Source: an uncultured beta proteobacterium (GTDB taxonomy: Bacteria; Pseudomonadota; Gammaproteobacteria; Burkholderiales; SG8-41). Taken from it: a DNA stretch of 63,149 nucleotides. The stretch covers positions 1 to 63,149 of the forward strand of contig CAIZLW010000002.1 of the NCBI GenBank assembly GCA_903933915.1. Reading direction: 5' to 3'. Shown in pieces: positions 8,987 through 40,615 of this stretch (positions are counted from its first letter, which is position 1; every line of letters begins with the position of its first letter). The notes beneath the pieces were generated by a model. That model did no database searches and had not been told where the DNA came from. It worked only from the letters and a program-made list of their open reading frames with translations. The translations under genes were made by a program, and so were the position numbers.

Positions 8987-9745
8987 TTAACGCGCGGCGC
9001 TTTTCCACAGGTCGCTCAGGTATTCGTGGTCGCTGGTGTTGATCCAGCTGTAGCGGTATTCCACCGGCGTGTCGTTGTAGGTGTAGGCGACACGGCGAAT
9101 CTGCAGCACCGGTTGGTCGGTGCGCGTGCCGAGGATGGCCGCGACGTCCGCCGGCGGGTGAGCCGCCGACAGCCGTTCGCTGATGCGAACGACATTGACG
9201 CCGTAACGCGCCTGATACAAGCCGTAGATGGTGCCTTCGCGGTTGCGGAAAGTGGATTCATCGAGACGGGCAAAACGCTCGGTCGGCACCGTGATGTCGT
9301 CCAGCACCACCGGCTTGCCGGCCAACTTCAGCAGATTGCGCACCCGCGCCACGCGGCTGCCGCGGATCAGCCCGAACTGGGTTTCATCGTTGGCGTCGGC
9401 GCGTTCCTTGCGAAAATCCAGCAGCTCCGACACCGGAAACTCGCGGCTGCCGTCCTTGCCGACGACATGGAAAAAATAGAACAGCGTGCGGTCTTCGGTG
9501 TGCGTCGCGACAAAAGTGCCTCGTCCCTGCTGGCGCACCAGGATGCGGCCGGCCACCAGTTCGTCAATGGCGCGGCGGATGGTGCCGATCGACACATTGA
9601 ACTGCCGCGCCAGCCGCGACTCGCTGGGAATGGCTTCGCCCGGCTTCCATTCCCCGGCGGCCAGTGCGCGCGTAATACGCCATTGCACTTCGCGGTACAG
9701 CGGTGCGGTGGCCAGGTTGTCAGCGATGGGGGCGGGGGTGTCCAT
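8987..9745 (-). CDS. GntR-family regulator, HutC/UTRA type
   Basis: 252 residues. An N-terminal winged helix (about 15-85: APLYREVQWRITRALAAGEW, IPSESRLARQFNVSIGTIRRAI, GRILVRQQGRGTFV) is followed by a UTRA effector domain (about 100-245). Such proteins repress adjacent catabolic genes until a small acid, sugar or amino acid binds. It is divergent from the sulfo-lyase-like operon with a 158-bp gap holding direct repeats, so it is the likely local regulator of that cluster; the inducer is unknown. Confidence 0.9.
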   Translation of the reverse strand: MDTPAPIADNLATAPLYREVQWRITRALAAGEWKPGEAIPSESRLARQFNVSIGTIRRAIDELVAGRILVRQQGRGTFVATHTEDRTLFYFFHVVGKDGSREFPVSELLDFRKERADANDETQFGLIRGSRVARVRNLLKLAGKPVVLDDITVPTERFARLDESTFRNREGTIYGLYQARYGVNVVRISERLSAAHPPADVAAILGTRTDQPVLQIRRVAYTYNDTPVEYRYSWINTSDHEYLSDLWKSAAR

Positions 9746-9781
9746 GTCAGCGCGCGGCAGTCTATCACGCAGATCGTGGAT

Positions 9782-9828
9782 TCATATAGGTCATATAGTT
9801 GACTGTCTGAAAGCGCGGGGGTTAGCAT
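9782..9828 (+). promoter_or_regulatory. Putative promoter with tandem operator between the GntR gene and the sulfo-lyase operon
   Basis: TCATATAG occurs twice in direct orientation (9782-9789 and 9791-9798, 9-bp period), directly abutting TTGACT (9799-9804) with TAGCAT 18 bp downstream (9823-9828). Repeats touching the -35 box of the operon are well placed for repression by the divergent regulator. Confidence 0.4.
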
Positions 9829-9903: not shown

Positions 9904-10185
9904 ATGATTCACTTGTTGGTACACGATAAAAAGGACACGGTCGGCGTGGCCGTCATCGAAGGCATCAAGGCTGGCCAGGAGATGGTTGGCTGGGTCATGG
10001 AAGATGACTCCACGATCAAGGTCAAAGCGCTAAACGACATTCCGATCGGGCACAAGGCTGCGCTGTGCGAGATCAAGAAGGGCGACACCATCATCAAATA
10101 CGGTTTTGACATTGGCAAGGCCGTGGCCGACATCAAGCTCGGCGAGCACGCCCACGTCCACAACATCAAAACCAAGCGTTGGTAA
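9904..10185 (+). CDS. suyA: Sulfolactate sulfo-lyase-like small subunit (UxaA-family SAF domain)
   Basis: 93 residues, a lone SAF domain: [43 protein letters not shown] and the end [15 protein letters not shown] domains of this type form the small subunit of altronate/galactarate-type dehydratases and of (2R)-sulfolactate sulfo-lyase (SuyA); the KTKRW ending matches what I remember of SuyA rather than UxaA. The reaction by family is 3-sulfolactate to pyruvate plus sulfite. It has a strong ribosome binding site (aggaggcaaa) and is the first gene of the cluster. Family is certain; the exact substrate is inferred. Confidence 0.7.
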
Positions 10186-10244
10186 CAGCGGCTGCCAAGT
10201 CAGCACGACCCCGAACCCGATTCCGATCCAAAACGGAGATACAA

Positions 10245-11414
10245 ATGATCGACAGCAAAACCACATTCATGGGCTACCGCCGCGAGAACGGTCGCGTTGG
10301 TGTCCGCAACCATGTCCTGATCCTGCCGGTGGACGATCTGTCCAACGCCGCTGCTGAAGCCGTGGCCAACAACATCAAGGGCGCGATTGCGATCCCGCAT
10401 CCTTACGGCCGCCTGCAATTCGGCGCCGACCTGGACCTGCATTTCCGCACCATCATCGGCGCGGGTGCCAACCCCAACGTCGCCGCCGTGGTGGTGATCT
10501 GCATTGAAGAAGGCTGGGCGAAAAAAGTGGTCGACGGCATTGCCAAGACCGGCAAGCCGGTCACCGGTTTCGGCATCGAACTCCATGGCGATCACGACAC
10601 CATCATGCGTGCGTCCAAAGTGGCCAAGGAATACGTGCAATGGGCTTCCGAACTGCAGCGCGTGGAATGCCCGATCAGCGACCTGTGGGTGTCGACCAAG
10701 TGCGGCGAGTCCGATACGACCTCCGGTTGCGGCTCCAACCCGACTGTCGGCAGTGCTTTCGACAAACTCGAGCCGCTGGGCGTGACCATGTGTTTCGGTG
10801 AAACCACCGAAATCACCGGCGGCGAAAATATTGTTGCTGACCGTTGCGCAACTCCGGAAGTGCGCAAGGAATTCATGCGGATGTTTGATCGTTACCAGGA
10901 AATCGTCGAGAAAAACAAAACCAGCGACCTGTCCGATTCGCAGCCGACCAAGGGCAATATCGCCGGCGGCCTGACCACGATCGAGGAAAAAGCGCTGGGC
11001 AACATCCAGAAAATTGGCAAGAAGTGCAAGGTCATCGGTGTGCTCGACAAGGCCGAAGAACCGACCAAACCCGGCCTGTGGTTCATGGATTCGTCCTCGG
11101 CCGCAGCGGAAATGGTCACGTTGTGCGCAGCATCCGGCTACGTGGTGCACCTGTTCCCGACCGGGCAGGGCAATGTTATCGGTAATCCGATCATACCGGT
11201 GGTGAAGCTGACCGCGAATCCGCGTACTGTGCGCACGATGAGCGAACACGTTGATTACGACTGCTCGGGACTGTTGCAGCGCGAGAAAAACCTCGACCAG
11301 ACCGGCGACGAGTTGATCGAAGTCATGCTGCGCACCTGTAACGGCCGGCTGACTGCCGCTGAAGCACTGGGCCATCGCGAGTTTGTGCTGACCCGCCTGT
11401 ACGAAAGCGCTTAA
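10245..11414 (+). CDS. suyB: Sulfolactate sulfo-lyase-like large subunit (UxaA family)
   Basis: 389 residues from the ATG at 10245, chosen because GGAGAT precedes it and [19 protein letters not shown] fits the family start; the frame is open 22 codons further up. Motifs: [39 protein letters not shown] (about 150-168), [38 protein letters not shown]. These match my memory of SuyB, the catalytic subunit of sulfolactate sulfo-lyase, more closely than altronate dehydratase. It pairs with the small subunit 59 bp upstream. It would release sulfite from a 2-hydroxy-3-sulfo acid in the cytoplasm. Confidence 0.7.
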
Positions 11415-11433
11415 ACCGACAGACCGCCGGAGG

Positions 11434-11482
11434 TCCGTGACCGGGCTGCGATGCGAAGCATAGCGTCGAGGCCGTTCACGGA
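11434..11482 (+). other. Structured spacer: nested hairpin between the sulfo-lyase and ThDP-enzyme genes
   Basis: TCCGTGA (11434-11440) pairs perfectly with TCACGGA (11476-11482). Inside, CGG/CCG and ATGC-gaa-GCAT can pair as well. There is no T-run, so it is not a standard terminator. It could be an mRNA processing or stability element setting different levels of upstream and downstream genes. Confidence 0.4.
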
Positions 11483-11523
11483 TTCAGTGCGGTCGTTGTT
11501 TTTTTGAACGGAAGAACCTGTCA

Positions 11524-13182
11524 ATGACCCCAATGCGCGGTGCCGATATTCTGGCGCGTTCGCTGGCTGCGGCCGGACTGACGCGGGTATTTTCGCTTTC
11601 CGGCAATCACATCATGCCGGTGTATGACGCGGCGATTGAAGCAAAACTGGATATTACGCACGTGCGTTATGAAGGCGCTGCCGTGCACATGGCGGATGCC
11701 TGGGGACGCCTCACCGGCGAACCGGGAATTGCAATGCTGACCGGTGGTCCCGGTCATGCCAATGGCGTCGGCGCCTTGTATACCGCGCTTGCTTCAGAGT
11801 CACCGATGGTACTGTTGTCCGGGCATGCACCCTTGAACGAACTGGGCCGCGGTTCGTTCCAGGAAATGCGCCAGGCTGACATCGCGGCGCCGCTGGTCAA
11901 GGCGTCATGGATCGCAGCCAGCGCCGAATCGCTGGGCGATGACATCGCCAAAGCCTGCCGCATTGCGCGCTCCGGCCGGCCGGGCCCGGTGCATCTGAGT
12001 TTGCCATTTGACGTACTCGAAACCAAAGTTGCCGACGGCGAGCGCGTGCTGGCGAGCGCCGCCGATTTCCTGTCGACCGAACACGGCCTGGAGAGCAAGA
12101 CGCTGACGGCGCTGGCGGCACTGCTGCAGTCGGCAGTCCGTCCGCTGATCGTGCTCGGGCCGGCAATGGCGCATGCGCCGGTAGCCGCGCTGGTGGATGA
12201 ACTGGCCAGGGCCACAGGTGTGCCGGCGGTGTGCATGGAAAGCCCGCGCGGCGTCAATGATCCCGCGCTGGGCGCTTTTGCCGGTGCGCTGGCGAAAGCC
12301 GACCTGGTGGTGTTGCTCGGCAAGCAGCCTGATTTCACGCTGCGTTTCGGCAAGGCGCCCGCGCTGGCTACCGATTGCCGTTTTGCGGTCATCGATCCCG
12401 AAGCAGAGGTGCTGCAACGCTCGGTGAAGAATCTGGGGAAATCGCGTGTGGTCTTGTCCGCACAGGCGGATTCCGCTGTGGCCGTACGTGCGCTGATCAA
12501 AAGCGCGCAACGCAAGGCAGGGCAGTCGTCGTGGTTCGACGAGGTTGCCGGCGCAGTGGCGTTCCGTCCGTCGGCGTGGCGTGAGATCAGCAGCGGTGAC
12601 GCCGGTCCGGTGCATCCGGTCGAACTGGGCCGCGCGGTACAGGAATTACTCGATACTTCACCAGAGGCGGTGTTTGTCGCCGACGGCGGCGAGATTGGCC
12701 AGTGGGCGCAGGCTTGCATCAGCGTGCCGACCCGCATCATCAATGGCCCCGGCGGTTCCATCGGCAGCGGCGTGCCTTTTGCGTTTGCCGCGCGCATGGC
12801 GCGGCCCAAGGCGCCGGTTATTGCGGTAATGGGCGACGGCGCCTTCGGTTTTCATCTGATGGAGTTCGACACGGCGGCGCGCGCCGGCGTGCCGATGATC
12901 GTTGTGGTCGGCAACGATTCCTGCTGGAACGCCGAACACCAGATTCAACTGCGCACTTACGGCAAGGAACGCGCGCACGGCTGCGAACTCGCCGGCGGCA
13001 CGCGTTATGATCTGGCGGTGGCGGCACTGGGCGGCCACGGTGAACTGGTGACCAAGGTCGCGGATCTGCGGCCGGCATTGCAGCGGGCCATTGCCAGCGG
13101 CAAACCCGCCTGCATCAATGTGATGATTCAGCGTCTTGCTGCGCCGACGGTCACCGCCGGCACAGCGGGCGCGGCGCACTAG
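11524..13182 (+). CDS. Thiamine-diphosphate-dependent enzyme (acetolactate synthase/2-oxo-acid decarboxylase family)
   Basis: 552 residues with the full three-domain fold. The PYR domain (1-165) has the cofactor-activating Glu in VRYEGAA (E50) and GPGHANGVGALYTA; a central NAD/FAD-binding-like domain follows (about 190-330); the PP domain has GDGAFGFHLMEFDTA then GNDSCWN (about 438-465), the Mg-ThDP motif. It probably decarboxylates or transfers a 2-oxo acid. It does not look like Xsc (sulfoacetaldehyde acetyltransferase) by length or start, nor like the short ComDE sulfopyruvate decarboxylase. Its substrate in this cluster is unknown. Confidence 0.75.
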   Translation: MTPMRGADILARSLAAAGLTRVFSLSGNHIMPVYDAAIEAKLDITHVRYEGAAVHMADAWGRLTGEPGIAMLTGGPGHANGVGALYTALASESPMVLLSGHAPLNELGRGSFQEMRQADIAAPLVKASWIAASAESLGDDIAKACRIARSGRPGPVHLSLPFDVLETKVADGERVLASAADFLSTEHGLESKTLTALAALLQSAVRPLIVLGPAMAHAPVAALVDELARATGVPAVCMESPRGVNDPALGAFAGALAKADLVVLLGKQPDFTLRFGKAPALATDCRFAVIDPEAEVLQRSVKNLGKSRVVLSAQADSAVAVRALIKSAQRKAGQSSWFDEVAGAVAFRPSAWREISSGDAGPVHPVELGRAVQELLDTSPEAVFVADGGEIGQWAQACISVPTRIINGPGGSIGSGVPFAFAARMARPKAPVIAVMGDGAFGFHLMEFDTAARAGVPMIVVVGNDSCWNAEHQIQLRTYGKERAHGCELAGGTRYDLAVAALGGHGELVTKVADLRPALQRAIASGKPACINVMIQRLAAPTVTAGTAGAAH

Positions 13183-13206
13183 AGCGTCAGGCAAAGGAAC
13201 AAGCGT

Positions 13207-13920
13207 ATGGAAACCCTGCAGGTCAGAATCTGGCGCGGCAAGGAAAACGGCGGTTTTCAGGAATTCGAAGTACCACGGCAGGAAAGCCAGACCGTGCTGG
13301 ATGTTGTCACCTACGTGCAGCGCAAATGCGACCCGACGCTGTCCTACCGGTTTGCCTGCCGCGTCGGCGTCTGCGGTTCGTGTGCGATGACGGTCAACGG
13401 CGTATCGCGCTGGACCTGCCGCACGCATGTCTCGAAAGTCGCCGAAGACAACAAGGTCGAAATCGCGCCGCTGCGCAACCTGCCGGTGATCAAGGATCTG
13501 GTCACCGACATGAGCGAGTTCTTCGATAAATGGGCCAAGGCGCGCGGCAGTTTCAAGGGCAGCAGCACGCGCAAGGACGGATTTGCGCAGGTGTCCCCGG
13601 AGTCGAAGGAACGCAAGCGCGTCGATGCCGGCATCGAATGCATCGGCTGCGGCGTTTGTTACAGCGCCTGCGACGTGGTGACCTGGAACAAGGATTACCT
13701 CGGCCCGGCGGCGCTCAATCGGGCGTGGACACTGGTCAACGATGTGCGCGACACCGGGCGGGCCGAGCGCCTCGCGGCGGTCGCTGGCGATGCCGGCTGT
13801 CACGCCTGCCACACCCACATCAGTTGTACCGAGCGCTGCCCGAAAGGCCTGTCGCCGACCGCTGGTATTGCCGGACTGAAACGCGCAGTGCTGGCGGCGA
13901 CCTTGTCCGGCGAAATATAA
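13207..13920 (+). CDS. Succinate dehydrogenase/fumarate reductase iron-sulfur subunit
   Basis: 237 residues with all three cluster motifs. [2Fe-2S]: C51-R-V-G-V-C56-G-S-C59 and C71. [4Fe-4S]: C145-I-G-C148-G-V-C151-Y-S-A-C155. [3Fe-4S]: C198-H-A-C201, C207, C211-P. It passes electrons from the flavoprotein to the membrane anchor. The genes for the two anchors follow, while the flavoprotein gene lies 4.9 kb downstream. Placement in a catabolic cluster suggests a dedicated paralogue acting on a succinate analogue rather than the housekeeping enzyme. Confidence 0.88.
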   Translation: METLQVRIWRGKENGGFQEFEVPRQESQTVLDVVTYVQRKCDPTLSYRFACRVGVCGSCAMTVNGVSRWTCRTHVSKVAEDNKVEIAPLRNLPVIKDLVTDMSEFFDKWAKARGSFKGSSTRKDGFAQVSPESKERKRVDAGIECIGCGVCYSACDVVTWNKDYLGPAALNRAWTLVNDVRDTGRAERLAAVAGDAGCHACHTHISCTERCPKGLSPTAGIAGLKRAVLAATLSGEI

Positions 13921-13951
13921 AAATGTTTAAAAACAATAATTTATATTTGTT
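13921..13951 (+). repeat. AT-rich dispersed repeat, copy B
   Basis: Contains TTTAAAAACAATAATTTAT in a GC-rich neighbourhood, exactly between the iron-sulfur subunit and the first membrane anchor. It supplies the ATG and first residues of a 17-codon open frame. Confidence 0.55.
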
Positions 13952-13976
13952 TCTCGTGGAGGGATGCCGCGCATGA
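13923..13976 (+). CDS. Possible 17-residue leader peptide coupled to the membrane-anchor gene
   Basis: ATG at 13923 opens MFKNNNLYLFLVEGCRA and stops in an ATGA overlap with the next gene's ATG at 13973. Its start lies inside the AT-rich repeat. There is no obvious Shine-Dalgarno sequence, so it may be untranslated. If translated it would couple ribosomes into the anchor gene. Confidence 0.3.
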   Translation: MFKNNNLYLFLVEGCRA

Positions 13977-14323
13977 GCCGGCGCAGCGAAGTGCTGCTGT
14001 GGGGTGCGCAACGTATCAGCGCGATGGCGCTGGCGGTGTGCGTGATCGTGCATCTGGTGACGATGATCTATGCAGTGCGCAGCGGACTGAGCGGCGCTGA
14101 AATCCTCGGCCGTACGCAGGGCAACATCGGCTGGCTGGCATTCTATGCCGTGTTTGTTGCCGCGATTTCGGTGCATGCGCCGATCGGCCTGCGCACCATA
14201 CTCGCCGAAATATTCAACTGGCGCGGTCACGGCGCCAATGTGTTTGCAGCGGTCGTCGGGTTGAGTCTTGCGATGTGGGGCTTGCGCGCAGTGATGGCCG
14301 TATTCGGCGGGGCGCCGGCATGA
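13973..14323 (+). CDS. Membrane anchor subunit of the succinate dehydrogenase/fumarate reductase-like complex (first)
   Basis: 116 residues with three hydrophobic segments (about 15-37, 58-77, 88-110) and several His residues (HLVTMIY, VHAPIGLR) suited to haem or quinone sites. The start at 13973 is preferred over 13964 because GGAGGG is then at proper distance. It ends in an ATGA overlap with the second anchor. I assign it by gene order and membrane pattern; the sequence itself is divergent. Confidence 0.7.
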   Translation: MSRRSEVLLWGAQRISAMALAVCVIVHLVTMIYAVRSGLSGAEILGRTQGNIGWLAFYAVFVAAISVHAPIGLRTILAEIFNWRGHGANVFAAVVGLSLAMWGLRAVMAVFGGAPA

Positions 14324-14667
14324 AGAACGATTACCGCGCACGCAATCATCCAGCGTACTGGGCGTTCATTGTCCATCGCGTATCGGGCCTGCTGCTAACA
14401 TTGTTTCTGCCGCTGCATTTCTGGGCGCTGGGCCAGGCTTTTCATGGTGCTGCCGGGCTCGACCATTTTCTCGAATGGACGCACAACCCGCTGGTGAAAT
14501 TTGCCGAAACTGGTCTGGTGCTGCTGCTGTCCGCGCACATGGCCGGCGGCGTACGCCTGCTGATGATCGAATTTCTCGATTGGCGTGAATGGCAGAAAAC
14601 ACTGCTTGTCGCCGCGGGGTGCATTTCGCTCGTGGTGGTGCTCGCTTTCCTGTTGAATCTCGTCTGA
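14320..14667 (+). CDS. Membrane anchor/cytochrome b subunit of the succinate dehydrogenase/fumarate reductase-like complex (second)
   Basis: 115 residues from the ATG at 14320, which overlaps the previous stop. It carries the cytochrome b556 signature HRVSGLLLTLFLPLHFWALG (about 19-38) and SAHMAGGVRLLMIE (about 71-84), with the likely haem-ligand His. There are three membrane helices. It anchors the complex and passes electrons to quinone. Confidence 0.8.
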   Translation: MKNDYRARNHPAYWAFIVHRVSGLLLTLFLPLHFWALGQAFHGAAGLDHFLEWTHNPLVKFAETGLVLLLSAHMAGGVRLLMIEFLDWREWQKTLLVAAGCISLVVVLAFLLNLV

Positions 14668-14689
14668 TGGCCCAAGCCGTGCGGAGTCA

Positions 14690-16105
14690 ATGCGTATGAA
14701 AAAAAATAAACCGAAGAAGCCGAATATTCTGCTGATCCTGGTCGATGACCTGCGTTTCGATGAATTCGGTGCCGGTGGCCATCCGTACATGAAAACGCCG
14801 CATATCGACCGCATCGCCCGCGAGGGGGTGAAGTTTGACCGTGCGTTTCACACCACGTCGATCTGCTCGCCGAACCGCGCGTCGATACTCACCGGACAAT
14901 ACGCCAGCCGCCACGGCATTATCGACAACGTCGCCCGCGACCTGGCCAGCCATCGCCTGCCGAATTACCACCTTGAACTGCAGCGTCTGGGGTACGAAAC
15001 CGCGCATATCGGCAAATGGCATATGGGCAACGACGGCAAGCCGCGACCGGGTTACGACTTCTGGGTGGCGTACGACGGCCACGGCAATCTTTACGATCCG
15101 AAACTGAACGAGAACGGCAAATACGTCCAGCACAAGGGTTATGTCACCGACATCATGAACACGATGGCGGTGGACTGGATCAAAGGCCAAAGCCGGCGCA
15201 AGGGGAAGAATGCCGACAAGCCGTGGTCGCTGTGGTTTGCGCACAAGGCCGTGCACCCCGATGCCGAGCAGGCCGCTGACGGCTCGTTCAGAATGGACGG
15301 CTATCGCCCGGCCAAGCGCCACGAGAATCTTTACAAGGGTTGCGTGTTCCCGAAAAAACCGAACATGCAGAAGCCTGCGGAGTTTCTCAAACACAAGCCG
15401 GTGTGGGCCGAAGCGGTGGAGCTGCGCAAGACCGAAGCCTCGAAAATCATGCACGACGCCATCCACTCCGGCAAACAGGAAGAAATCCGCCTGCGCGCTG
15501 CGATGATGGCAGCGGTGGACGAGGGTGTTGGCATGCTGTTCAAGACCCTCGAAGAAACCGGCGAGCTGGACAATACGGTGATCCTGTTCCTTGGCGACAA
15601 CGGGTATTTCTTCGGTGAGCACGGTCTTGGACCGGAGCGTCGTTTTCCGTACGAAGAGGGCATCCGCGCGCCGTTGCTGATCCGCTGGCCGAAATCGATC
15701 AAGCCGGGTTCCGAGGTACGCGATCTGGTGATCTTGCAGGACATCGCGCCCACACTGCTCGAGATCGGCGGCGGCAAGCCGGGCGAGCACATTCAGGGGC
15801 GTTCATTGCTGCCGGTGATCCGCGGCAAACGCGCCGGCTGGCGCAAGTCCTTTCTGGTCGAGTACTGGGCGGAGAATGCCTATCCGTGGCTGGTCGGCAT
15901 GAGTTTCAGGGCGATCCGTACCGACCGCTATAAATACATTCACTGGGTCAATCGCGCGCGTAACGGCGAACTCGATGAGCTCTACGATCTGCAAAAGGAC
16001 CCGTACGAGCTGATCAACTTGGCGAAGAAACCGGCTTACGCGGCGGTGCGCAAAAAAATGACCCGGGATCTGCGAGTGCTGGCCGCGGATGCGCTGGGGC
16101 TTTAA
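14690..16105 (+). CDS. Type I (formylglycine) sulfatase, probably cytoplasmic
   Basis: 471 residues. PNILLILVDDLRFDEF carries metal-binding D19/D20. C59-S-P-N-R in HTTSICSPNRASILTGQYASRHG is the CxPxR site converted to formylglycine. HIGKWHMG and LGDNGYFFGEHG complete the active site. No signal peptide is seen, so the enzyme may act on an imported sulfate ester. Relatives include choline-, aryl- and sugar-sulfatases; CxPxR phosphonate monoester hydrolases are also possible. Lying between dehydrogenase anchors and a Bug receptor gene, it suggests an organosulfur substrate for the cluster. Confidence 0.85.
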   Translation: MRMKKNKPKKPNILLILVDDLRFDEFGAGGHPYMKTPHIDRIAREGVKFDRAFHTTSICSPNRASILTGQYASRHGIIDNVARDLASHRLPNYHLELQRLGYETAHIGKWHMGNDGKPRPGYDFWVAYDGHGNLYDPKLNENGKYVQHKGYVTDIMNTMAVDWIKGQSRRKGKNADKPWSLWFAHKAVHPDAEQAADGSFRMDGYRPAKRHENLYKGCVFPKKPNMQKPAEFLKHKPVWAEAVELRKTEASKIMHDAIHSGKQEEIRLRAAMMAAVDEGVGMLFKTLEETGELDNTVILFLGDNGYFFGEHGLGPERRFPYEEGIRAPLLIRWPKSIKPGSEVRDLVILQDIAPTLLEIGGGKPGEHIQGRSLLPVIRGKRAGWRKSFLVEYWAENAYPWLVGMSFRAIRTDRYKYIHWVNRARNGELDELYDLQKDPYELINLAKKPAYAAVRKKMTRDLRVLAADALGL

Positions 16106-16215
16106 CGCAGGCAGAACGTCGCTTGCCGCCCCCGGGGGCGTCGGGTATTGTGAACCGCGGGTTCCGGGTTCTCGTATGGCAGCCAACAACAACACCAGAG
16201 CGTGAGGAGAAAAAG

Positions 16216-17178
16216 ATGAGCAAAGCAGGATTGATCGCCGCGGCATGTTTGCTCGCCGCATCCACCGCGTTTGCTGCGGATGTCTATCCCGTCCGTCCGG
16301 TGCGCATCATTGTGCCGTTCGCACCCGGCGGCGCCACCGATATCGTTGCTCGCCTGGTCGGACAGAAGCTCAATGAAGGCTGGGGGCAGCCCGTGGTCGT
16401 CGACAATCGCGCCGGCGCGGGCGGCAACATCGGCGGTGATATCGCGGCCAAATCAAACCCCGACGGTTACACGCTGTTCATGACCTCCGGCTCCATTGTC
16501 ACCGCCAACCAGCACATGTACGCAAAAATGCCGTTCAGCCCGGAAAAAGACCTGGTTGCGGTGACCAACGTTGCCAGCGGGCCGCAGGCCATCGTTGTCA
16601 ATCCGAGCAACCCGGCGAAAACGCTGAAGGAATTCATTGCAATGGCAAAAGCCAAGCCGAAGTCGATGACTTTCGGTTCGGCCGGCGTCGGCACCCAGAC
16701 GCATTTGGCGGCGGAGAATTTCATCTACGCCTCCGGCATTGACGTCACCCACGTGCCGTACAAGGGTGAGGGCCCGGCAGTCAGCGATCTCGTCGGCGGG
16801 CAGATCCAGTTCGTCACGCCCAATCTGTCGGCCGCCATTGCCTTCGTCAACACCGGCAAGCTGCGCGCGCTGGCGGTGACCAGCAAGGAGCGGTCGGCGC
16901 AACTGCCGAACGTTCCTGCCGTTGCCGAAACACTGCCCGGCTTTGAAAACCTCGGCTGGTTCGGCTTCATGGTGCCCACCGGCACACCGAAGGCGGTGAT
17001 CGCCAAGGTGCATGCCGACACCGTCAAGGCGCTCGCCAACGCGGATCTGCGCAAACGCATCACCGAAATCGGCATGACCGCTGTCGGCAACACGTCCGAG
17101 GAGTTTGCAAAGGACATCAAGGTGGAGTCGGAACGCTGGGCGAAGATCATCAAGGAACGCAATCTGCAGGTGAAGTAA
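16216..17178 (+). CDS. Bug/TctC-family periplasmic solute receptor (cluster copy 1)
   Basis: 320 residues from the ATG at 16216 (GAGGAG upstream), with signal peptide MSKAGLIAAACLLAASTAFA|AD. Family hallmarks: VRIIVPFAPGGATDIVARL, VVVDNRAGAGGNIGGD, VTHVPYKGEGPAVSDLVGGQIQF. Bug proteins clasp carboxylates in the periplasm for tripartite tricarboxylate transporters. Sulfolactate uptake (SlcHFG) uses this family, which fits the cluster. No TctA/TctB genes are nearby. Confidence 0.93.
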   Translation: MSKAGLIAAACLLAASTAFAADVYPVRPVRIIVPFAPGGATDIVARLVGQKLNEGWGQPVVVDNRAGAGGNIGGDIAAKSNPDGYTLFMTSGSIVTANQHMYAKMPFSPEKDLVAVTNVASGPQAIVVNPSNPAKTLKEFIAMAKAKPKSMTFGSAGVGTQTHLAAENFIYASGIDVTHVPYKGEGPAVSDLVGGQIQFVTPNLSAAIAFVNTGKLRALAVTSKERSAQLPNVPAVAETLPGFENLGWFGFMVPTGTPKAVIAKVHADTVKALANADLRKRITEIGMTAVGNTSEEFAKDIKVESERWAKIIKERNLQVK

Positions 17179-17263
17179 CGCATGGCAATGCCGGCGGCCG
17201 GTCTGCGCGGGCGCAACGCCCCGCAGCGGCTTCCGGGTTTTTCATTTTATTGAAGGTGCATTC

Positions 17264-18139
17264 GTGAAGGTCGATCTCAAACAGGTTGAAGAGGCGTGCA
17301 AGGAACTGTATATCCGCGCGCTCAAGATGCTGCCGCCGGACATCAAGCAGGGTTTTCAGCGGCTCGATCACGCCGAAACCAATGCCACCGGAAAAGCCAT
17401 CCTCGGCACCATGATCCGTAACATCACTGTGGCCGAGGACAATACCAATCTGCTGTGCCAGGACACCGGCATTCCGATTTACAACGTGGTGATCGGCAGC
17501 AATGTCGCGGTGGATGGTCATGCGCTGAAACAGGCCATCATCAGCGGCTGCGCCCGTGCCACCAAGGAGCATCCGCTGCGTTCGTCGGTTGTGCATCCGA
17601 CCACGCGCAAGAACGAGCACACCTCGGGCGGGCGTCACGTGCCGGTGATCAACATCGATTTTTCGCCGCAGGCTGAGACCTTGTCGATTGAAATGATTCC
17701 GAAAGGCTCCGGCTCGGAGAACAATTCCTGGCTGCGCATGGCGATTCCGGCCGAAGGCATTGATGCGATCAAGACCTTCGTCATCGACTGCGTGCTTGAG
17801 GCCGGCGGCAAAAGCTGTCCCCCGGTGATCGTCGGCGTCGGTGTTGGCGGCACCGCCGATCTGTGCGTGCATCTGTCAAAAGTCGCGGCGACGCGGCCGC
17901 TGGGCAGCCAATGCGAGGATCCGGAAGGCGCCAAGCTCGAAGCCGAACTCAGCGCCGTGGTCAACAGGCTGGGTGTCGGTGCGCAGGGTCTGGGCGGCGA
18001 TTCCACCGCGTTTGCGGTACATGTCGAAACGGCTGCCACGCACATCACGATGAATCCCGTTGCCGTGAACATGCAGTGCCATTCGGCACGGCGCGCGCGG
18101 GCGACCTTTACGCCGCAAGGCCTCAGCTACGGCTACTGA
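17264..18139 (+). CDS. Class I fumarate hydratase/L-tartrate dehydratase-type alpha subunit
   Basis: 291 residues from a GTG start. The N-terminal domain of the two-subunit iron-sulfur hydratases: NLLC65QDTGIPIYNV, KSC185PPVIVGVGVGG, MQC271HSARR. These three Cys bind the catalytic [4Fe-4S] cluster. It reversibly adds water to fumarate-like double bonds or dehydrates tartrate. The beta subunit follows 14 bp downstream. Within a cluster of SDH-, MDH- and sulfo-lyase-like genes it is a candidate for hydrating a substituted fumarate. Confidence 0.9.
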   Translation: MKVDLKQVEEACKELYIRALKMLPPDIKQGFQRLDHAETNATGKAILGTMIRNITVAEDNTNLLCQDTGIPIYNVVIGSNVAVDGHALKQAIISGCARATKEHPLRSSVVHPTTRKNEHTSGGRHVPVINIDFSPQAETLSIEMIPKGSGSENNSWLRMAIPAEGIDAIKTFVIDCVLEAGGKSCPPVIVGVGVGGTADLCVHLSKVAATRPLGSQCEDPEGAKLEAELSAVVNRLGVGAQGLGGDSTAFAVHVETAATHITMNPVAVNMQCHSARRARATFTPQGLSYGY

Positions 18140-18153
18140 ACGACGGATAAGAC

Positions 18154-18765
18154 ATGGCGCATTACGAACTCAACATGCCGGTGACGGAAGAGCAGGTCCG
18201 CAAGCTGCGCATCAACGACACCGTGACCCTGCACCAGACCCTGTACGGCATCCGCGATGCCACGCAGATTCACATGTTTGATCACGGCCGCAAGACACAT
18301 TTCGACATGCATGGCCACGCCGTTGTGCACACCGCACCCAACGTCAAATGGGTCGGAGAGACCCAGGAGCATCCGTCGGGTTACGCGCCGATCTGCATCG
18401 GCACCACCACCAGTGCGCGGATGGAGCGTTTCACCCGCCCGCTGATGGAACAGTACGGCGTGCGCATCATCATCGGCAAGGGCGGACTGTTCACCGCTTC
18501 AGCCAAGGCCTTTGCTGATTTGGGCGGCGTGTACCTCGCGATCATCGGTGGTACGGCTGCGCTGGAGACCACCTGGATCGAACAGATCGAGGAAGTCGAC
18601 CTCGACGATCTCAATCCTGAATCGCTGTGGAAATTCCGCATCAAGGGCTTTGGTCCGCTGCTGGTGGCGATGGACTCGCATGGGGGCAGCCTGTACACCG
18701 CAGTCAACGCGGCTGCCAAGGATAAACGTGCCGGCGTGCTCGCCGCACTCGGCGTCAAAAGTTAA
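18154..18765 (+). CDS. Class I fumarate hydratase/L-tartrate dehydratase-type beta subunit
   Basis: 203 residues, the C-terminal domain (TtdB/FumA-C). LRINDTVTLHQTLYGIRDATQ, GTTTSARMERFTRPLMEQYG and IIIGKGGLFTASAKAF carry the swivelling-domain residues and the KGGL motif; GGTAALETTWIEQIEEVDL follows. It forms the active site with the alpha subunit. Length is normal. Confidence 0.9.
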   Translation: MAHYELNMPVTEEQVRKLRINDTVTLHQTLYGIRDATQIHMFDHGRKTHFDMHGHAVVHTAPNVKWVGETQEHPSGYAPICIGTTTSARMERFTRPLMEQYGVRIIIGKGGLFTASAKAFADLGGVYLAIIGGTAALETTWIEQIEEVDLDDLNPESLWKFRIKGFGPLLVAMDSHGGSLYTAVNAAAKDKRAGVLAALGVKS

Positions 18766-18776
18766 TTAGCCCAATC

Positions 18777-20492
18777 ATGAAAACCATCAAGACCGACATC
18801 CTGATTCTCGGTTCCGGCGGAGCCGGCCTGTTTGCCGCGCTGCACGCCCACCAGCACAATCCCGATCTGTCGATTACCGTGGCCGTCAAAGGGCTGCTCG
18901 GCAAAAGCGGCTGTACGCGAATGGTGCAGGGCGGTTACAACGTTGCGCTCGCCGAAGGCGATTCGGTTGAACGCCACTTCATGGATACCATCGAAGGCGG
19001 CAAGTGGCTGCCCGACCAGGATCTGGCGTGGACGCTGGTCGAAACCGCGGTCGAACGCATTCATGAGCTGGAAAACGAACTCGGCTGTTTTTTTGATCGC
19101 AATCCCGACGGCACGATCCATCAGAAAGCGTTTGCGGGCCAGACCTTCGACCGTACCGTACACAAGGGTGATCTGACGGGCATTGAAATCATCAACCGTC
19201 TCGCCGAGCAGGTGTGGGCTCGCGGCATCAACCGTCTTGAAGAGCATCGTGCTGTCGAGTTCATCCGCACCAAGGCCGGCGACGCGGTTTCCGGCGTGCT
19301 GATGATCGACATGCGCAGCGGCGAGTTCACCTTCGTGCAGGCGCAGGCGGTGCTGCTGGCGACCGGCGGCGGACCGACGATGTACAAGTACCACACGCCC
19401 TCCGGCGACAAGAGCTGCGACGGTATGGCGATGGCAATGCGCGCCGGGCTGCAGTTGCGCGACATGGAGATGGTGCAGTTCCATCCGACCGGCCTGATCG
19501 CCGGCATGGACACACGCATCACCGGCACCATCATTGAAGAAGGTCTGCGCGGCGCCGGCGGTTACCTGCTCAACGGCGACGGCGAGCGTTTCATGCACAA
19601 GTACGATCCGCGCAACGAACGCGCCACGCGCGACATCGTCAGTCGCGGCATGTTCGAGGAAATGCGCGCCGGCCGTGTCGGCCCACGCGGCGGGCTGTAC
19701 ATCACCATGCGTCATCTTGATCCGGTGATGGTGCGCAAGGAATTCAAGGGTATGGTCGAGCGCTGCGCCGACTGCGGCTTCGATCTGGTCGGCGGACTCG
19801 CCGACGTGGTGCCGACAGCGCATTACATGAGGGGCGGTGTGGTGTTCAAAACCGACTGCACTACCGATCTGCACGGCCTGTTCGTCGCCGGCGAGGATTC
19901 GGGCGGCGTGCACGGCGCGAACCGGCTCGGCGGCAACGGGGTGGCTAACTCCACCGTGTTCGGCGGCATCGCCGGCGACGTGATGCCGGGTTGGATCAAG
20001 GCCAACGGCGAGTTCCGCGCCCCCGATCAGGAAGCCATCGATGCGGCCGTTGCCCGCTGCCAGGCGCCGCTGTCGCGCAAGGGCGGCGACATGAACGCCA
20101 TCCGCGAGCAGCTCTACAACGTGATGTGGGAGGACGTCGGCATCGTGCGCGATGCGAAGTCGCTGGTGCGTGCAGAAGACCAGCTCGACGAACTCGACGC
20201 CCGGCTTGATGCGATCGGCATCGATGGTTCGAATCTCGCCTTCAATCTGACCTGGCACGACTGGCTTAATCTGAAAAACCTGGTGATGGTGTCCAAGTCG
20301 ATTCGCTTTGCGGCGATGGCGCGGGAGGATTCGCGCGGCGCCCATTTCCGTGCCGATCATCCGGACGTGCGCGACCTTGAGAACTCGCGGTATACCTGCG
20401 TCGGCTGGCAGGGCGGCCGTTTCAACATTGAAACGCGACAGGTCAAATTCACCCGGGTCAAACCGGGCGAGTCGCTGCTGACCGCAGGCTGA
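18777..20492 (+). CDS. Succinate dehydrogenase/fumarate reductase flavoprotein subunit, with Cys at the usual flavin-linking position
   Basis: 571 residues. FAD-binding ILGSGGAGLFAAL (residues 10-22), QFHPTGL (about 235), EGLRGAGGYLLN, RNERATRDIVSRG, the HYMRGGV substrate loop and HGANRLGGN (about 380) are present. The segment normally reading S-H-T before AQGG reads S-G-C-T-R-M-V-QGG, so C46 stands where E. coli SdhA/FrdA have the His that binds FAD covalently. It starts 11 bp after the fumarase beta gene. It is the catalytic partner of the iron-sulfur subunit at 13207. The substrate is probably a succinate-like dicarboxylate. The 532-codon antisense frame is a shadow. Confidence 0.87.
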   Translation: MKTIKTDILILGSGGAGLFAALHAHQHNPDLSITVAVKGLLGKSGCTRMVQGGYNVALAEGDSVERHFMDTIEGGKWLPDQDLAWTLVETAVERIHELENELGCFFDRNPDGTIHQKAFAGQTFDRTVHKGDLTGIEIINRLAEQVWARGINRLEEHRAVEFIRTKAGDAVSGVLMIDMRSGEFTFVQAQAVLLATGGGPTMYKYHTPSGDKSCDGMAMAMRAGLQLRDMEMVQFHPTGLIAGMDTRITGTIIEEGLRGAGGYLLNGDGERFMHKYDPRNERATRDIVSRGMFEEMRAGRVGPRGGLYITMRHLDPVMVRKEFKGMVERCADCGFDLVGGLADVVPTAHYMRGGVVFKTDCTTDLHGLFVAGEDSGGVHGANRLGGNGVANSTVFGGIAGDVMPGWIKANGEFRAPDQEAIDAAVARCQAPLSRKGGDMNAIREQLYNVMWEDVGIVRDAKSLVRAEDQLDELDARLDAIGIDGSNLAFNLTWHDWLNLKNLVMVSKSIRFAAMAREDSRGAHFRADHPDVRDLENSRYTCVGWQGGRFNIETRQVKFTRVKPGESLLTAG

Positions 20493-20581
20493 TCCCGCAT
20501 CAGCATCTGCCGTTTGATTTTTCCGGGCTGGCGGGAGAGACTGCCGGCCGGCATTACATCACCAAGCTTGGAGGAGACATC

Positions 20582-21565
20582 ATGGACCGTTCCGTTGTAT
20601 TGAGCATCGCCCTTGTTGGTGCAACCATCGGCGGCGTATTTGCTGTCGCTGCACCGGCTGCAGCCCAGGAATTCCCGACCCGCAGCATCCGCATGGTACT
20701 GCCGTTCCCGGCGGGCGGCGGCAGCGATCTGGTCGCACGCATCATTGCGCAGAAATATTCGCAGCAACTGGGTCAGCAGGTCATCGTCGACAATCGCGCC
20801 GGTGCCAGCGGCAACATCGCGGCGGACATCGTGTCCAAGGCGCCCGGCGACGGCTACACGATATTTTTTGCCAACTCTTCAATCTCGATCAGCCCGGCGA
20901 TTTATAAAAAACTTTCCTTTGACCCGGTGAAGGATTTCTCGGCGATATCGATGGCCTCGTCGTATCCGTTTGTATTGGTGGCACATCCGGCATTGCCGGT
21001 CAAAAGCGTCAAGGAACTGGTGACGCTGGCCAGAGGCAAGCCCAACACGCTGGACTATTCTTCGGCCGGCACCGGGACGATGTCGCACATGGCGATGGAA
21101 ATGCTGCGCGTCAAAACCGGAACCCGGATTACCCACCTGCCGTACAAGGGCGCCGCGCCGGCAACGGTGGCTTTGCTGACCGGTGAGGCACAGGTCGCGT
21201 TTGTGGTGATGCCGGTGGCAGCGCCGCACATCGCCAGCAATCGCCTGCGCGGGCTGGGTGTAGCCGACAAGGTGCGTTCTGCCGTCGCACCGAACGTGCC
21301 GACCATGATCGAAGCTGGTGTCCCTGATCACGTGGCCGTGCAGTGGAACGGCCTGTTGGTGCCGTCCAAGACTCCGCAGGCGATCCAAGACAAGCTCTAC
21401 AAGGAATGGGTGGCTGCCGTGAAAGCGCCGGAAGTCGTGCAGCGGATTCGTGCTGAAGGCGCGGAACCCAGCGGCAACACGCCGGCGGAGTTTTCGGCGT
21501 TTTTCCGGGCGGAAGCCGCAAAGTGGGCGGATGTGGCGAAACAATCCGGCACCACGGTGGATTGA
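20582..21565 (+). CDS. Bug/TctC-family periplasmic solute receptor (cluster copy 2)
   Basis: 327 residues, signal peptide MDRSVVLSIALVGATIGGVF...AAA|QE and a GGAGG ribosome binding site. Hallmarks: IRMVLPFPAGGGSDLVARI, VIVDNRAGASGNIAAD, ITHLPYKGAAPATVALLTG. It is the second receptor of the cluster and may bind a different intermediate or stereoisomer from copy 1. Four bases separate its stop from the dehydrogenase ATG. Confidence 0.93.
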   Translation: MDRSVVLSIALVGATIGGVFAVAAPAAAQEFPTRSIRMVLPFPAGGGSDLVARIIAQKYSQQLGQQVIVDNRAGASGNIAADIVSKAPGDGYTIFFANSSISISPAIYKKLSFDPVKDFSAISMASSYPFVLVAHPALPVKSVKELVTLARGKPNTLDYSSAGTGTMSHMAMEMLRVKTGTRITHLPYKGAAPATVALLTGEAQVAFVVMPVAAPHIASNRLRGLGVADKVRSAVAPNVPTMIEAGVPDHVAVQWNGLLVPSKTPQAIQDKLYKEWVAAVKAPEVVQRIRAEGAEPSGNTPAEFSAFFRAEAAKWADVAKQSGTTVD

Positions 21566-21569
21566 CGCG

Positions 21570-22583
21570 ATGCCGCTGCTGTCGATTGCGGATCTGACCG
21601 AACTCGCCGCGCGCGCGTTAAAGCGCGCCGGTGCGTCCAAGGCCATGGCCGAAGCGACGGCGCAGGCGCTGGTGGCTGCAGAAGCCGAAGGACTGTCGGG
21701 CCACGGTTTGTCCCGCGTTGCACTCTACGTCCAGCATTTGCGCGAAGGCCGCGTCGACGGCAAGGTAAAACCCAAAGTCATTCGCAAGAACGGCGCCACC
21801 TGCCTGATCGACGCCGGCGGCGGATTGGCGCTTCCTGCCGCAGCCCTCGCAGTCAATGAAGCGATCAAACGCGCCAAACGTTATGGCGTGGCGTTTGCCG
21901 GCATCACCAACAGTCACCACTTCGGCGCGGCGGCTTATCATCTGGCCGCGATTGCCGATGCCGGCATGACCGGCATTGCGCTGACCAATTCACCGTCGGC
22001 GATCAATGCCTGGGGCGGCAGCAAGGCGTTTTTCGGTACCAATCCGATCGCCGCGATTTTTCCGCGCAAGAAGCAGCCGCCGATCGTCGTTGATCTGTCG
22101 CTGACCGAAGTTACCCGCGGCAAGATCATGCTCTATGCCAAGGAAGGCAAACCGATTCCGCTGGGCTGGGCCGTTGATCGCGACGGTAACCCGACGACCA
22201 GCGCGCAGGCGGCGTTGACCGGCAGCCTGACCGCCATCGGCGGCGTCAAAGGCACGGCGCTGGCGCTGATGGTTGAAGCCTTGTGTGTCGCGCTGACCGG
22301 CGCTGCATTGAGCTGCGAAAATGATTCGTACTTCGAACCCGGAAACAAGCCGCGCATCGGCCATGCGCTGATCGTCATCGACCCCAATGCGCTGGCTGGC
22401 GCTGAAATTTATTACGCGCGCATCGAAGACATGGTCGGGCACATGCACGCCGATGCCGGCGTGCGACTGCCCGGCGCACGCCGGCATCAGGCGGTGGCGA
22501 AAGCGCAAGCCGAGGGTATTGTTGTGGCAGACGCACTGCACCAGGAGTTGCTGAAACTCGCCGGGCGCAGCCGCAAGAATTGA
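21570..22583 (+). CDS. Ldh/MDH-2 family NAD(P)-dependent 2-hydroxy-acid dehydrogenase (ComC-like)
   Basis: 337 residues from the ATG at 21570, which follows the receptor stop by 4 bases. AEGLSGHGLSRVALYVQHLREG, CLIDAGGGLALPAA, FAGITNSHHFGAAAYHLAAIAD and GTNPIAAIFPRK are diagnostic of the type-2 malate/L-lactate/ureidoglycolate dehydrogenases, the family that includes (R)-sulfolactate dehydrogenase ComC. It is the last gene of the cluster. It probably oxidises a 2-hydroxy acid such as malate, sulfolactate or an analogue. Confidence 0.85.
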   Translation: MPLLSIADLTELAARALKRAGASKAMAEATAQALVAAEAEGLSGHGLSRVALYVQHLREGRVDGKVKPKVIRKNGATCLIDAGGGLALPAAALAVNEAIKRAKRYGVAFAGITNSHHFGAAAYHLAAIADAGMTGIALTNSPSAINAWGGSKAFFGTNPIAAIFPRKKQPPIVVDLSLTEVTRGKIMLYAKEGKPIPLGWAVDRDGNPTTSAQAALTGSLTAIGGVKGTALALMVEALCVALTGAALSCENDSYFEPGNKPRIGHALIVIDPNALAGAEIYYARIEDMVGHMHADAGVRLPGARRHQAVAKAQAEGIVVADALHQELLKLAGRSRKN

Positions 22584-22614: not shown

Positions 22615-22680
22615 GACCGTGAACATTCGCTTCGCGGCTGCGACAACGCCCGCAAGCGCGCCGCGTCGTTATTGATCACC

Positions 22681-26128: not shown

Positions 26129-26206
26129 GTGTATGTTGGCGTATCAGCATCTTGCGTACATAACAATAATCCGGCGCAGGGATGCGTTTCAATGAGGAGC
26201 GCAGCG

Positions 26207-27118
26207 ATGGCGATCACGATTATTCCGGTAACGCCAAACTTTGCAGCCGAGGTTGGCGATGTTGATTTGACCCGGGCGCTGTCCGGCGAGGATTTTGAGG
26301 CGATCCGGCAGGCATTCTGGAAATACGCCGTACTGATCTTCCCGCAACAGCAGCTGACCACCGACCAGCAGCTGGCCTTTTCCGGGCGATGGGGGGCGGT
26401 CGAGAACGAGCGCACGCTGGATCCGAAGGCGACGCCGACACGTTACAGCGGCGCGTTCTCCGACATTTCCAATCTTGCGATAGACGGCAAGATCTGGGGT
26501 GAAGACAGTCGGCAGCGCATGTACAAGGCCGGCAACAAGCTGTGGCATACCGACAGCTCGTTCAAGCGCCTGCCCAGCCTGTGTTCGCTACTGTATTCGG
26601 AGACCGTGGTGCCGATCGGCGGGCACACCGAGTTTGCCGACCAGCGCGCAGCCTATGATGCACTGCCTGCCGCAATGAAAAAGAAGCTCGAAGGACTGGT
26701 TGCCGAGCACTGGATCGCGACTTCGCGCCGGCGCAGCGGCTTCCACGATTTCAATGAAGACGAACAGAAACGCCTGCCGCCGGTACCGCAGCTGCTGGTG
26801 CGCACGATTCCGCAGAACAAACGCAAATCACTGTTTGTCGCGTCTCATGCCGGGCGCATCTGGGGTATGCCGGATGACGAAGGCCGCGCGCTGATCGACG
26901 AGCTGCTCGCCCATGTCACGCAGCGCCAGTTCGTCTACACCCATCGCTGGCGTCCGAATGAGCTGGTGATGTGGGACAACCGCTGCACGATGCACCGCGG
27001 CACCGACTTTGACGACCTGCGCTGGGTGCGCGTGATGCGCCGGGTGACGATCAGCGATGTCGCCAACAGCTGCGAGCAGGAAGGCGTGCCGTTGCCGGAA
27101 CCGATGCCCGTCTGCTAG
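26207..27118 (+). CDS. TauD/TfdA-family Fe(II)/2-oxoglutarate dioxygenase
   Basis: 303 residues from the ATG at 26207 (GAGGAG upstream; the frame is open to 26129). Iron ligands: LWHTDSSF (about 112) and the distal His in CTMHRGTDF (about 262), with the 2-oxoglutarate-binding Arg in WVRVMRRVT. FADQRAAYDALPAAMKKKLEGL and FVYTHRWRPNELVMWDNRC resemble 2,4-D dioxygenase TfdA more than TauD. It probably hydroxylates an ether or acid. Its stop shares CTAG with the stop of the convergent oxidase gene. Confidence 0.88.
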   Translation: MAITIIPVTPNFAAEVGDVDLTRALSGEDFEAIRQAFWKYAVLIFPQQQLTTDQQLAFSGRWGAVENERTLDPKATPTRYSGAFSDISNLAIDGKIWGEDSRQRMYKAGNKLWHTDSSFKRLPSLCSLLYSETVVPIGGHTEFADQRAAYDALPAAMKKKLEGLVAEHWIATSRRRSGFHDFNEDEQKRLPPVPQLLVRTIPQNKRKSLFVASHAGRIWGMPDDEGRALIDELLAHVTQRQFVYTHRWRPNELVMWDNRCTMHRGTDFDDLRWVRVMRRVTISDVANSCEQEGVPLPEPMPVC

Positions 27119-33180: not shown

Positions 33181-33193
33181 ACGGAGACGCTGC

Positions 33194-34195: not shown

Positions 34196-34248
34196 CCTTG
34201 CCGGGATTCAACAATAAAAATGAAATGTTTTCCGGGGAGAATCATGTC

Positions 34249-40530: not shown

Positions 40531-40615
40531 CTTCGAACCGGCATTGTCGGGAGTGCAGCTTCGTGACGGCGGGCGTAAAATTACGCGCATCAACAATATT
40601 CCACTCCAGGACACC

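Follow-up and report, generated by a model that had tools for sequence, protein, structure and literature searches.

A co-directional run of genes in the contig CAIZLW010000002.1 of an uncultured beta proteobacterium (63,149 nucleotides, the whole of which is here called the window) encodes a SuyAB-like sulfo-lyase, a thiamine diphosphate (ThDP)-dependent enzyme, a second complex II, a class I fumarase, a sulfatase, two TctC receptors and an Ldh_2 dehydrogenase between positions 9904 and 22583. The operon probably serves the catabolism of a C3 sulfonate resembling an acid of the tricarboxylic acid (TCA) cycle, the best candidate being 3-sulfopropanoate. This compound is succinate with one carboxylate exchanged for a sulfonate, an isostere, and the likeness extends to 3-sulfoacrylate, which mimics fumarate, to 3-sulfolactate, which mimics malate, and to sulfopyruvate, which mimics oxaloacetate. 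If the substrate of SuyAB is sulfolactate, the TCA-like enzymes should deliver sulfolactate. The genes, their families, their conservation and their linkage are seen directly, and from these we infer the substrate, every reaction, the uptake and the regulation. The cluster would extend the known sulfolactate-centred catabolism of sulfonates with a TCA-like entry.

The gene run and its sulfo-lyase

The run and the elements in front of it are:

8987-9745, minus strand: divergent GntR/HutC-type regulator with UTRA domain (Pfam PF07702, PF00392)
9781-9803, plus strand: conserved box TTCATATAGGTCATATAGTTGAC, 23 bp, upstream of suyA; candidate operator/promoter
9904-10185, plus strand: SuyA-like small subunit, 93 amino acids (N-terminal part of NCBIfam TIGR03248, weak, E 6e-8)
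10251-11414, plus strand: SuyB-like large subunit, 387 amino acids, GD_AH_second and GD_AH_C (Pfam PF20629, PF04295)
11524-13182, plus strand: ThDP-dependent enzyme (NCBIfam and Pfam scans)
13207-13920, plus strand: complex II-type Fe-S subunit, SdhB (TIGR00384 above cut-off; three Fe-S cysteine motifs)
13964-14323, plus strand: membrane anchor, SdhD-like, Sdh_cyt (PF01127; TIGR02968 below cut-off)
14317-14667, plus strand: membrane anchor, SdhC-like, cytochrome b556-like, Sdh_cyt (TIGR02970 above cut-off)
14690-16105, plus strand: sulfatase (PF00884, PF16347)
16210-17178, plus strand: TctC/Bug-type solute receptor (PF03401)
17264-18139, plus strand: class I fumarase-like alpha subunit, type F1 (PF05681; PRK06246 298.5 against a cut-off of 276)
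18154-18765, plus strand: class I fumarase-like beta subunit, type F1 (PF05683)
18777-20492, plus strand: complex II-type flavoprotein of a distinct subfamily (PF00890, PF02910)
20582-21565, plus strand: second TctC/Bug-type solute receptor (PF03401)
21570-22583, plus strand: Ldh_2 dehydrogenase, ComC-like (PF02615; PDB matches)

Every gene that the initial annotation had named in this run was confirmed by family scans, the family basis for the last four proteins (18154-22583) being a Pfam scan. The SuyA-like protein has no Pfam match; its gene precedes that of SuyB in relatives, and it is 61% identical to a protein of Cupriavidus pinatubonensis HN-2. The source assembly, a draft, comprises 3.8 Mb in 246 contigs, and its contamination is put at 7.19%. 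A succinate dehydrogenase-like module lies beside SuyB in 50 of 80 loci (the best 80 of 392 confirmed SuyB loci, many of the 30 without the module being short contigs), and the gene order is largely as in the window, so that the cluster is not an accident of assembly. The run had been described as a second TCA-like set, which is correct because the other flavoproteins of the genome are at most 35% identical to that of the run and a FumC above its cut-off is located elsewhere.

SuyB is 81.9% identical to a UxaA-family protein of C. pinatubonensis HN-2, its nearest relative in plasmids of known species, and the HN-2 pair is preceded by a LacI-type regulator, hpsN, hpsO, a major facilitator superfamily gene and a 'galactitol dehydrogenase'. 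This order matches the hpsRNOUPsuyAB cluster described for strain JMP134 in the available passages of PMC11382572, and the window pair is therefore SuyAB by close homology. The alternative that the pair is a sugar-acid dehydratase of the UxaA/GarD type is ruled out by cysteine columns and by phylogeny. According to the accessible part of PMC6336799, the UxaA/GarD superfamily shares four conserved cysteines, the sulfo-lyase being the exception. In the present alignment two cysteine columns are filled in 6/6 rows from other members of the family (altronate or galactarate dehydratases by annotation in three cases, UxaA-type only or unannotated in the other three) and hold no cysteine in 118/118 SuyB rows, which include near-duplicates, while a third, C151 of the window, is common to both groups. 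In an IQ-TREE phylogeny of 91 rows, of which 81 are SuyB (those of the 118 from stretches of at least 14 kb), all SuyB rows group in a single clade (100/100) that includes the hps-linked HN-2 protein; the outgroup contains several very long branches, and its internal order is unsure. The initial annotation had read the pair as SuyAB and had suggested a phylogeny with sugar-acid dehydratases as a check, and its assignment stands by the 82% identity, the clade and the cysteine columns alike. By homology, the SuyAB of the window is predicted to cleave sulfolactate to pyruvate and sulfite.

The cluster is also present in metagenome bins titled Bordetella parapertussis or Chitinophaga pinensis (L004, L006, L031 and L034), with SuyB proteins 89-100% identical to that of the window; these names look wrong for the contigs concerned.

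The flavoprotein subfamily and its genomic context

The flavoprotein belongs to a rare, clearly separated subfamily that is found in Proteobacteria, Rhodococcus and haloarchaea. It occurs in 11/398 sampled genomes of the phylum (E <= 1e-200) and 51/399 genomes of the order, the source genome included in both, and in 32/385 genomes of the class of genome G183. At a limit of 1e-120 the weakest matches listed were 3.4e-243 in the order and 1.4e-235 in the class of G183, and the next flavoprotein paralogue of the genome itself matched at E 2.4e-73. In a quick tree of 77 rows, drawn without 22 near relatives and 4 rows that were partial or odd, the subfamily separates as a single clade from three paralogues of the source genome.

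The traits of complex II are present, namely the catalytic residues, a three-cluster Fe-S subunit and the anchors. R285, H349 and R383 are found in 91/91 flavoprotein rows and H236 in 90/91 (57 rows from loci with an F1 fumarase and 34 from loci with a second type, F2, the window and five loci without fumarase standing outside the count). They correspond to R287, H355, R390 and H232 of Escherichia coli FrdA, which we take to have their accepted roles, and FrdA T244 is presumably the residue that binds one of the two carboxylates. The active site appears to be altered at this carboxylate-binding position, since the T244 position is Glu254 in all 91 rows, in the window and in the Rhodococcus and Haloarcula rows when aligned to E. 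coli FrdA. The histidine motif for covalent flavin adenine dinucleotide (FAD) is lost in 91/91 rows and in the window; its place is taken by GK[SCT]GCTRMVQGG (GRSGCTRMVQGG in the Rhodococcus row), and ahead of the conserved Asp132 the residues have given way to HK(G)D. The covalent-FAD histidine and the substrate-site threonine, which would define a succinate dehydrogenase proper, are thus both replaced. In its families, catalytic residues, Fe-S cysteines and quinone-type anchors the run resembles complex II and class I fumarase as found in the TCA cycle, whereas its flavoprotein differs by the glutamate, the lost motif, HK(G)D and the linkage to sulfonate genes. At codon 352 (19830-19832), near the catalytic His349, the window has Arg where all 57 F1 and 34 F2 members have Met, which is either a variant or a sequencing error.

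The surroundings of the flavoprotein were read in 10 of 18 plasmid records that contain it, 8 of which are annotated, the two others (Rhodococcus jostii RHA1 and Cupriavidus necator N-1) being unannotated and covered by tblastn only. TauE/SafE exporters are present at 8/8 annotated plasmid loci, a putative sulfate exporter at 5/8 and a sulfite-oxidase-type gene at 3/8. In Methylobacterium oryzae and M. radiotolerans the Fe-S subunit, anchors, fumarase, flavoprotein and ThDP enzyme lie in one row with TauE, SuyAB, a dicarboxylate carrier, an SlcC-like protein, Ldh_2 and GntR, and in R. jostii RHA1 the fumarase, flavoprotein, an aldehyde dehydrogenase, ComC-like and SlcC-like proteins and SuyAB lie within about 25 kb. 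Within the order SuyB is present in 44/250 genomes, 33 of these 44 with the flavoprotein, and within the class of G183 in 21/240, 11 of these 21 with the flavoprotein. Three loci (L151, L152 and L157), from small genomes of 1.6-2.1 Mb, combine HpsN, HpsO, SlcC, ComC, SuyAB and the module in a single C3-sulfonate island. The exporters, the linkage to SuyB and these islands bear out the initial proposal that the TCA-like module stands in a sulfonate context.

It is distinctly unlikely that complex II and the fumarase are ordinary extra copies for C4 dicarboxylates or tartrate-type acids which share an operon by chance with a sulfolactate module of SuyAB and ComC. TctC receptors often serve dicarboxylates, and the fumarase alpha subunit scores as a fumarate hydratase, both of which would suit such copies. 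However, the flavoprotein clade lies apart from the paralogues of the genome and has diverged at its substrate and FAD sites, the association with sulfonate and sulfite genes recurs in distant lineages and in different gene orders, and the genome already has FumC and other complex II-type flavoproteins.

Two further arrangements were observed. On a plasmid of Haloarcula sp. GH36 (L109, 8425-16422) a flavoprotein (48%) and an Fe-S subunit lie beside an annotated argininosuccinate lyase, the locus also holding a distant UxaA pair, Ldh_2 and TauE; no F1 or F2 fumarase was found there. In 7/9 stretches of family f98 (L123, L124, L126-L129 and L132) an oxidoreductase that is 35-40% identical to sulfite-oxidase queries sits between suyB and the Fe-S gene, the place of the ThDP gene in the window.

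A candidate route from 3-sulfopropanoate

In the proposed pathway the TctC receptors would bind the substrate outside the cell, and the dedicated complex II, made up of flavoprotein, Fe-S subunit and two anchors, would oxidise 3-sulfopropanoate to 3-sulfoacrylate and pass the electrons to quinone. Hydration of 3-sulfoacrylate at C2 by the two-subunit [4Fe-4S] fumarase-like enzyme would then give 3-sulfolactate. The ComC-like dehydrogenase, together with SlcC where present, would interconvert sulfolactate and sulfopyruvate and so provide the enantiomer accepted by SuyAB, which would release pyruvate and sulfite, and the GntR protein would control one conserved promoter. This scheme uses each core gene of the run once and needs no extra step, and the genomic context suggests a substrate other than fumarate for the class I fumarase-like pair.

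The same intermediates have been proposed before. A thesis cited in PMC11489063 leads from 3-sulfopropanoate via sulfoacrylate to sulfolactate in Roseovarius nubinhibens, the citing passage naming no genes, and the available text of that paper describes bacterial degradation of 3-sulfopropanoate as otherwise unreported. No genes assigned to this route were found in the literature searched, in part as excerpts and with most subscription papers outside the search. As a metabolite, 3-sulfopropanoate is a product of Enterococcus gilvus from sulfoquinovose or 2,3-dihydroxypropane-1-sulfonate (DHPS) and, in work cited in the same source, arises from homotaurine in Burkholderia and Cupriavidus (PMC11489063, available text); the mechanism of its degradation in Bilophila is called unclear in the accessible part of PMC12890257.

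Characterised systems share the last step of the scheme. The hpsRNOUPsuyAB pathway of C. pinatubonensis JMP134 likewise ends with the conversion of sulfolactate to pyruvate and sulfite, and HN-2 has, like the window, a TctC gene beside SuyAB. Unlike in the scheme proposed here, sulfolactate is made in the hps pathway through oxidation of DHPS by HpsN, HpsO and HpsP, and the stretch of the hps cluster that was read contains no complex II or fumarase. The SlcC/ComC-SuyAB module of Chromohalobacter and Paracoccus wurundjeri (PMC12421959, available text) resembles the window in its ComC-like Ldh_2 and SuyAB, whereas the window adds complex II, the fumarase and the ThDP enzyme and its run is without SlcC, which some of its relatives do carry. 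The same text reports a 'fumarate and tartrate' cluster with TauE that is induced on sulfofucose in P. wurundjeri, and this cluster may be explained by the module. If the proposal is true, it provides candidate 3-sulfopropanoate degradation genes in many Burkholderiales, Alphaproteobacteria, a Rhodococcus and, in altered form, a haloarchaeon. A known metabolite would be linked to sets annotated as extra succinate dehydrogenase and fumarase, and their annotation would be corrected. The module would then stand as a clear example in which a complete section of central metabolism has been copied for an isosteric sulfonate.

Several observations weigh against the 3-sulfopropanoate scheme. The Ldh_2 protein is nearer to delta1-piperideine-2-carboxylate reductase (PDB 1wtj, E 1.3e-57) than to the L-sulfolactate dehydrogenase ComC (2x06, E 1.3e-43). 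The scheme gives neither the ThDP enzyme nor the sulfatase a role. The fumarase alpha subunit exceeds the NCBIfam cut-off for fumarate hydratase, and the F1 fumarase may perform ordinary fumarate chemistry. Loss of the covalent-FAD histidine, judging from what is reported of E. coli FrdA mutants, should weaken oxidation of the succinate type. The run of the window is without SlcC, TauE and sulfite oxidase, and none of the 8 TauE-family matches in the genome is close to the three cluster TauEs. The genome also has no match to the sulfite oxidase family PF00174, and sulfite would therefore need export, assimilation or oxidation by another enzyme. The fumarase types have a bearing as well: among 88 stretches of up to 20 kb around the flavoprotein, some shortened by contig ends, 55 hold F1, the type of the window, 28 hold F2 and 5 neither, and a sulfonate or sulfite marker is found in 44/55 F1 vs 9/28 F2 stretches (31/34 vs 8/19 when only stretches of at least 19 kb are counted).

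The substrate favoured by the initial annotation was a C4 acid, sulfosuccinate, which would be converted through sulfofumarate to sulfomalate, followed by SuyAB-type elimination to oxaloacetate or by oxidation and decarboxylation to sulfopyruvate and then sulfolactate. Such a route could draw on the enzyme families of the run, complex II and class I fumarase being enzymes of C4 dicarboxylates, and a sulfonate context is solidly supported. The presence of the module, labelled from what each stretch shows (from the tblastn reading for RHA1), changes 9 times on the SuyB tree, with at least 6 changes forced by supported branches, and none of 500 shuffles (mean 20.6) gives as much clustering. The clustering also counts against the C3 scheme in that it leaves room for some specialisation of SuyB. 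However, the SuyB proteins of module loci are no separate subfamily, and their mixed labels speak, though not strongly, against a special sulfomalate lyase. Moreover the C3-sulfonate genes SlcC, ComC and HpsN share the stretches, a C4 route needs an extra decarboxylase or a new specificity of SuyAB, and the change at FrdA T244 would fit the replacement of a carboxylate better than an added group. The sulfosuccinate route is thus unlikely; a C4 substrate is probably wrong, and the C3 isostere of succinate fits better.

Another sulfur-bearing mimic of succinate, such as 3-sulfinopropanoate or an acid derived from mercaptosuccinate or homocysteate, with SuyAB acting downstream, is very unlikely. 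It would agree with the Sulfitobacter THAF37 plasmid (L107), where an annotated 3-sulfinopropanoyl-CoA desulfinase lies about 10 kb from the fumarase and where a ThDP enzyme and an aspartate-transaminase-type aminotransferase below its cut-off are also found. No recurrence of this arrangement was seen, the aminotransferase near the locus of genome G339 being HisC with unrelated neighbours, and SuyAB is a sulfonate lyase. An origin from homocysteate by ThDP decarboxylase, aminotransferase and aldehyde dehydrogenase was tested on L165, L193 and L107 and was not adopted: the L165 aminotransferase is HisC, with saccharopine- and prephenate-dehydrogenase neighbours, the next genes at L193 encode an O-antigen-ligase-type protein, an aminotransferase and an AraC-type regulator, and only THAF37 is compatible with it.

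Fumarase types, promoter and neighbouring genes

F2 is about 32-37% identical to F1, and the three cluster cysteines of a class I fumarase, C65, C185 and C272, are among the columns kept in at least 95% of the 57 F1 and of the 34 F2 rows. The two types differ in their company. SuyB lies in the stretch in 34/55 F1 vs 0/28 F2 cases (0/6 for the named F2 plasmids) and is present anywhere in the genome in 53/55 vs 12/28, absence meaning no match at E <= 1e-100 in 80 genomes and being scored from the stretches in the 8 others; for the class of G183 and like genomes the genome-wide numbers are 8/9 vs 9/25. ComC-like proteins occur in 39/55 F1 and 0/28 F2 stretches, SlcC in 14/55 and 0/28, and HpsN in 5/55 F1 stretches. 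An exception is Paracoccus ferrooxidans, where ComC, SlcC, HpsO and an HpsN-like protein are located about 4-13 kb past an F2 fumarase; SuyB is absent from that stretch. On the flavoprotein tree the fumarase type switches at least 5 times, and supported branches force 3 or 4 of these switches. Fisher tests of type against SuyB give 7e-9 for the stretches, 6e-8 genome-wide and 0.017 within the alpha-type group, but these values are not independent evidence, because a lineage-corrected test has no more than 2 independent pairs on supported branches (5 when all branches count) and its sign test is not significant.

A tentative explanation, possible rather than probable, is that one sulfonate dehydrogenase feeds two desulfonation routes between which the fumarase type chooses, F1 leading via sulfolactate and F2 to direct release of sulfite. 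F1 would add water at C2 of 3-sulfoacrylate, giving sulfolactate for cleavage by SuyAB. F2 would instead add it at the sulfur-bearing carbon, giving 3-hydroxy-3-sulfopropanoate, a bisulfite adduct that would fall apart into sulfite and malonate semialdehyde, the latter to be burnt by methylmalonate-semialdehyde dehydrogenase. In Pseudomonas MPC6 a CoA-acylating methylmalonate-semialdehyde dehydrogenase (695 vs a cut-off of 448.5) is encoded directly behind the F2 fumarase, which fits malonate semialdehyde as product; full-length homologues are found near 3/34 F2 loci (L105, L112 and L163) and in 0/55 F1 stretches, a difference that is no more than suggestive. The F2 locus of NT-25 encodes a sulfolactaldehyde-reductase-like protein (324 vs a family cut-off of 348) and a succinate-semialdehyde dehydrogenase above its subfamily cut-off, genes that fit an entry from 3-hydroxypropanesulfonate via 3-sulfopropanal. 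If this is true, F2 would represent a novel type of enzyme for the cleavage of C-S bonds, namely an iron-sulfur hydratase with the function of a desulfonase.

Other genes were noted beside F2. At L163 (12651-13514) and also at L104, L112 and L161 a protein is encoded directly behind the F2 fumarase, and the one member scanned matches Amidohydro_2, a fold that includes C-S-cleaving hydrolases. At L104 (M. nodulans), upstream of the Fe-S gene, two LysR-type genes enclose an open reading frame of 127 amino acids that matches methylmalonate-semialdehyde dehydrogenase and is perhaps a remnant beside the F2 module.

The ThDP enzyme was considered as Xsc, which was rejected at 163 bits vs the TIGR03457 cut-off of 676; homologues occur in 22/55 F1 and 10/28 F2 stretches. 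As read by eye, the sulfatase has a CxPxR motif and no evident signal peptide. It looks cytoplasmic and accessory, and is found in 11/55 F1 and 0/28 F2 stretches.

The box upstream of suyA contains a direct repeat of CATATAG with a 9-bp period that runs into a -35-like TTGAC, and a -10-like TAGCAT follows shortly after it, at about 9823-9828. An alignment of upstream regions shows it conserved in the window and in 20 relatives chosen for comparison, with A or C at one position. The exact box is present in 22/213 loci, of which two are from the window's own genome and some are mutual duplicates. At up to 3 mismatches it is single copy in the whole genome, with 0 matches for the reversed control. 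The GntR gene is divergent in many relatives as well, and its product is likely a local switch with a single target, the conserved promoter.

Downstream of the run, an open reading frame at 22672, presumably recQ, is found in relatives too. Elsewhere the window encodes a TauD-family dioxygenase (26129-27118), a SulP-type sulfate permease with STAS and cNMP domains (38275-40530), four further TctC receptors (33092-34195, 34153-35220, 40496-41620 and 49694-50671) and an EptA/EptB-type phosphoethanolamine transferase (60834-62459).

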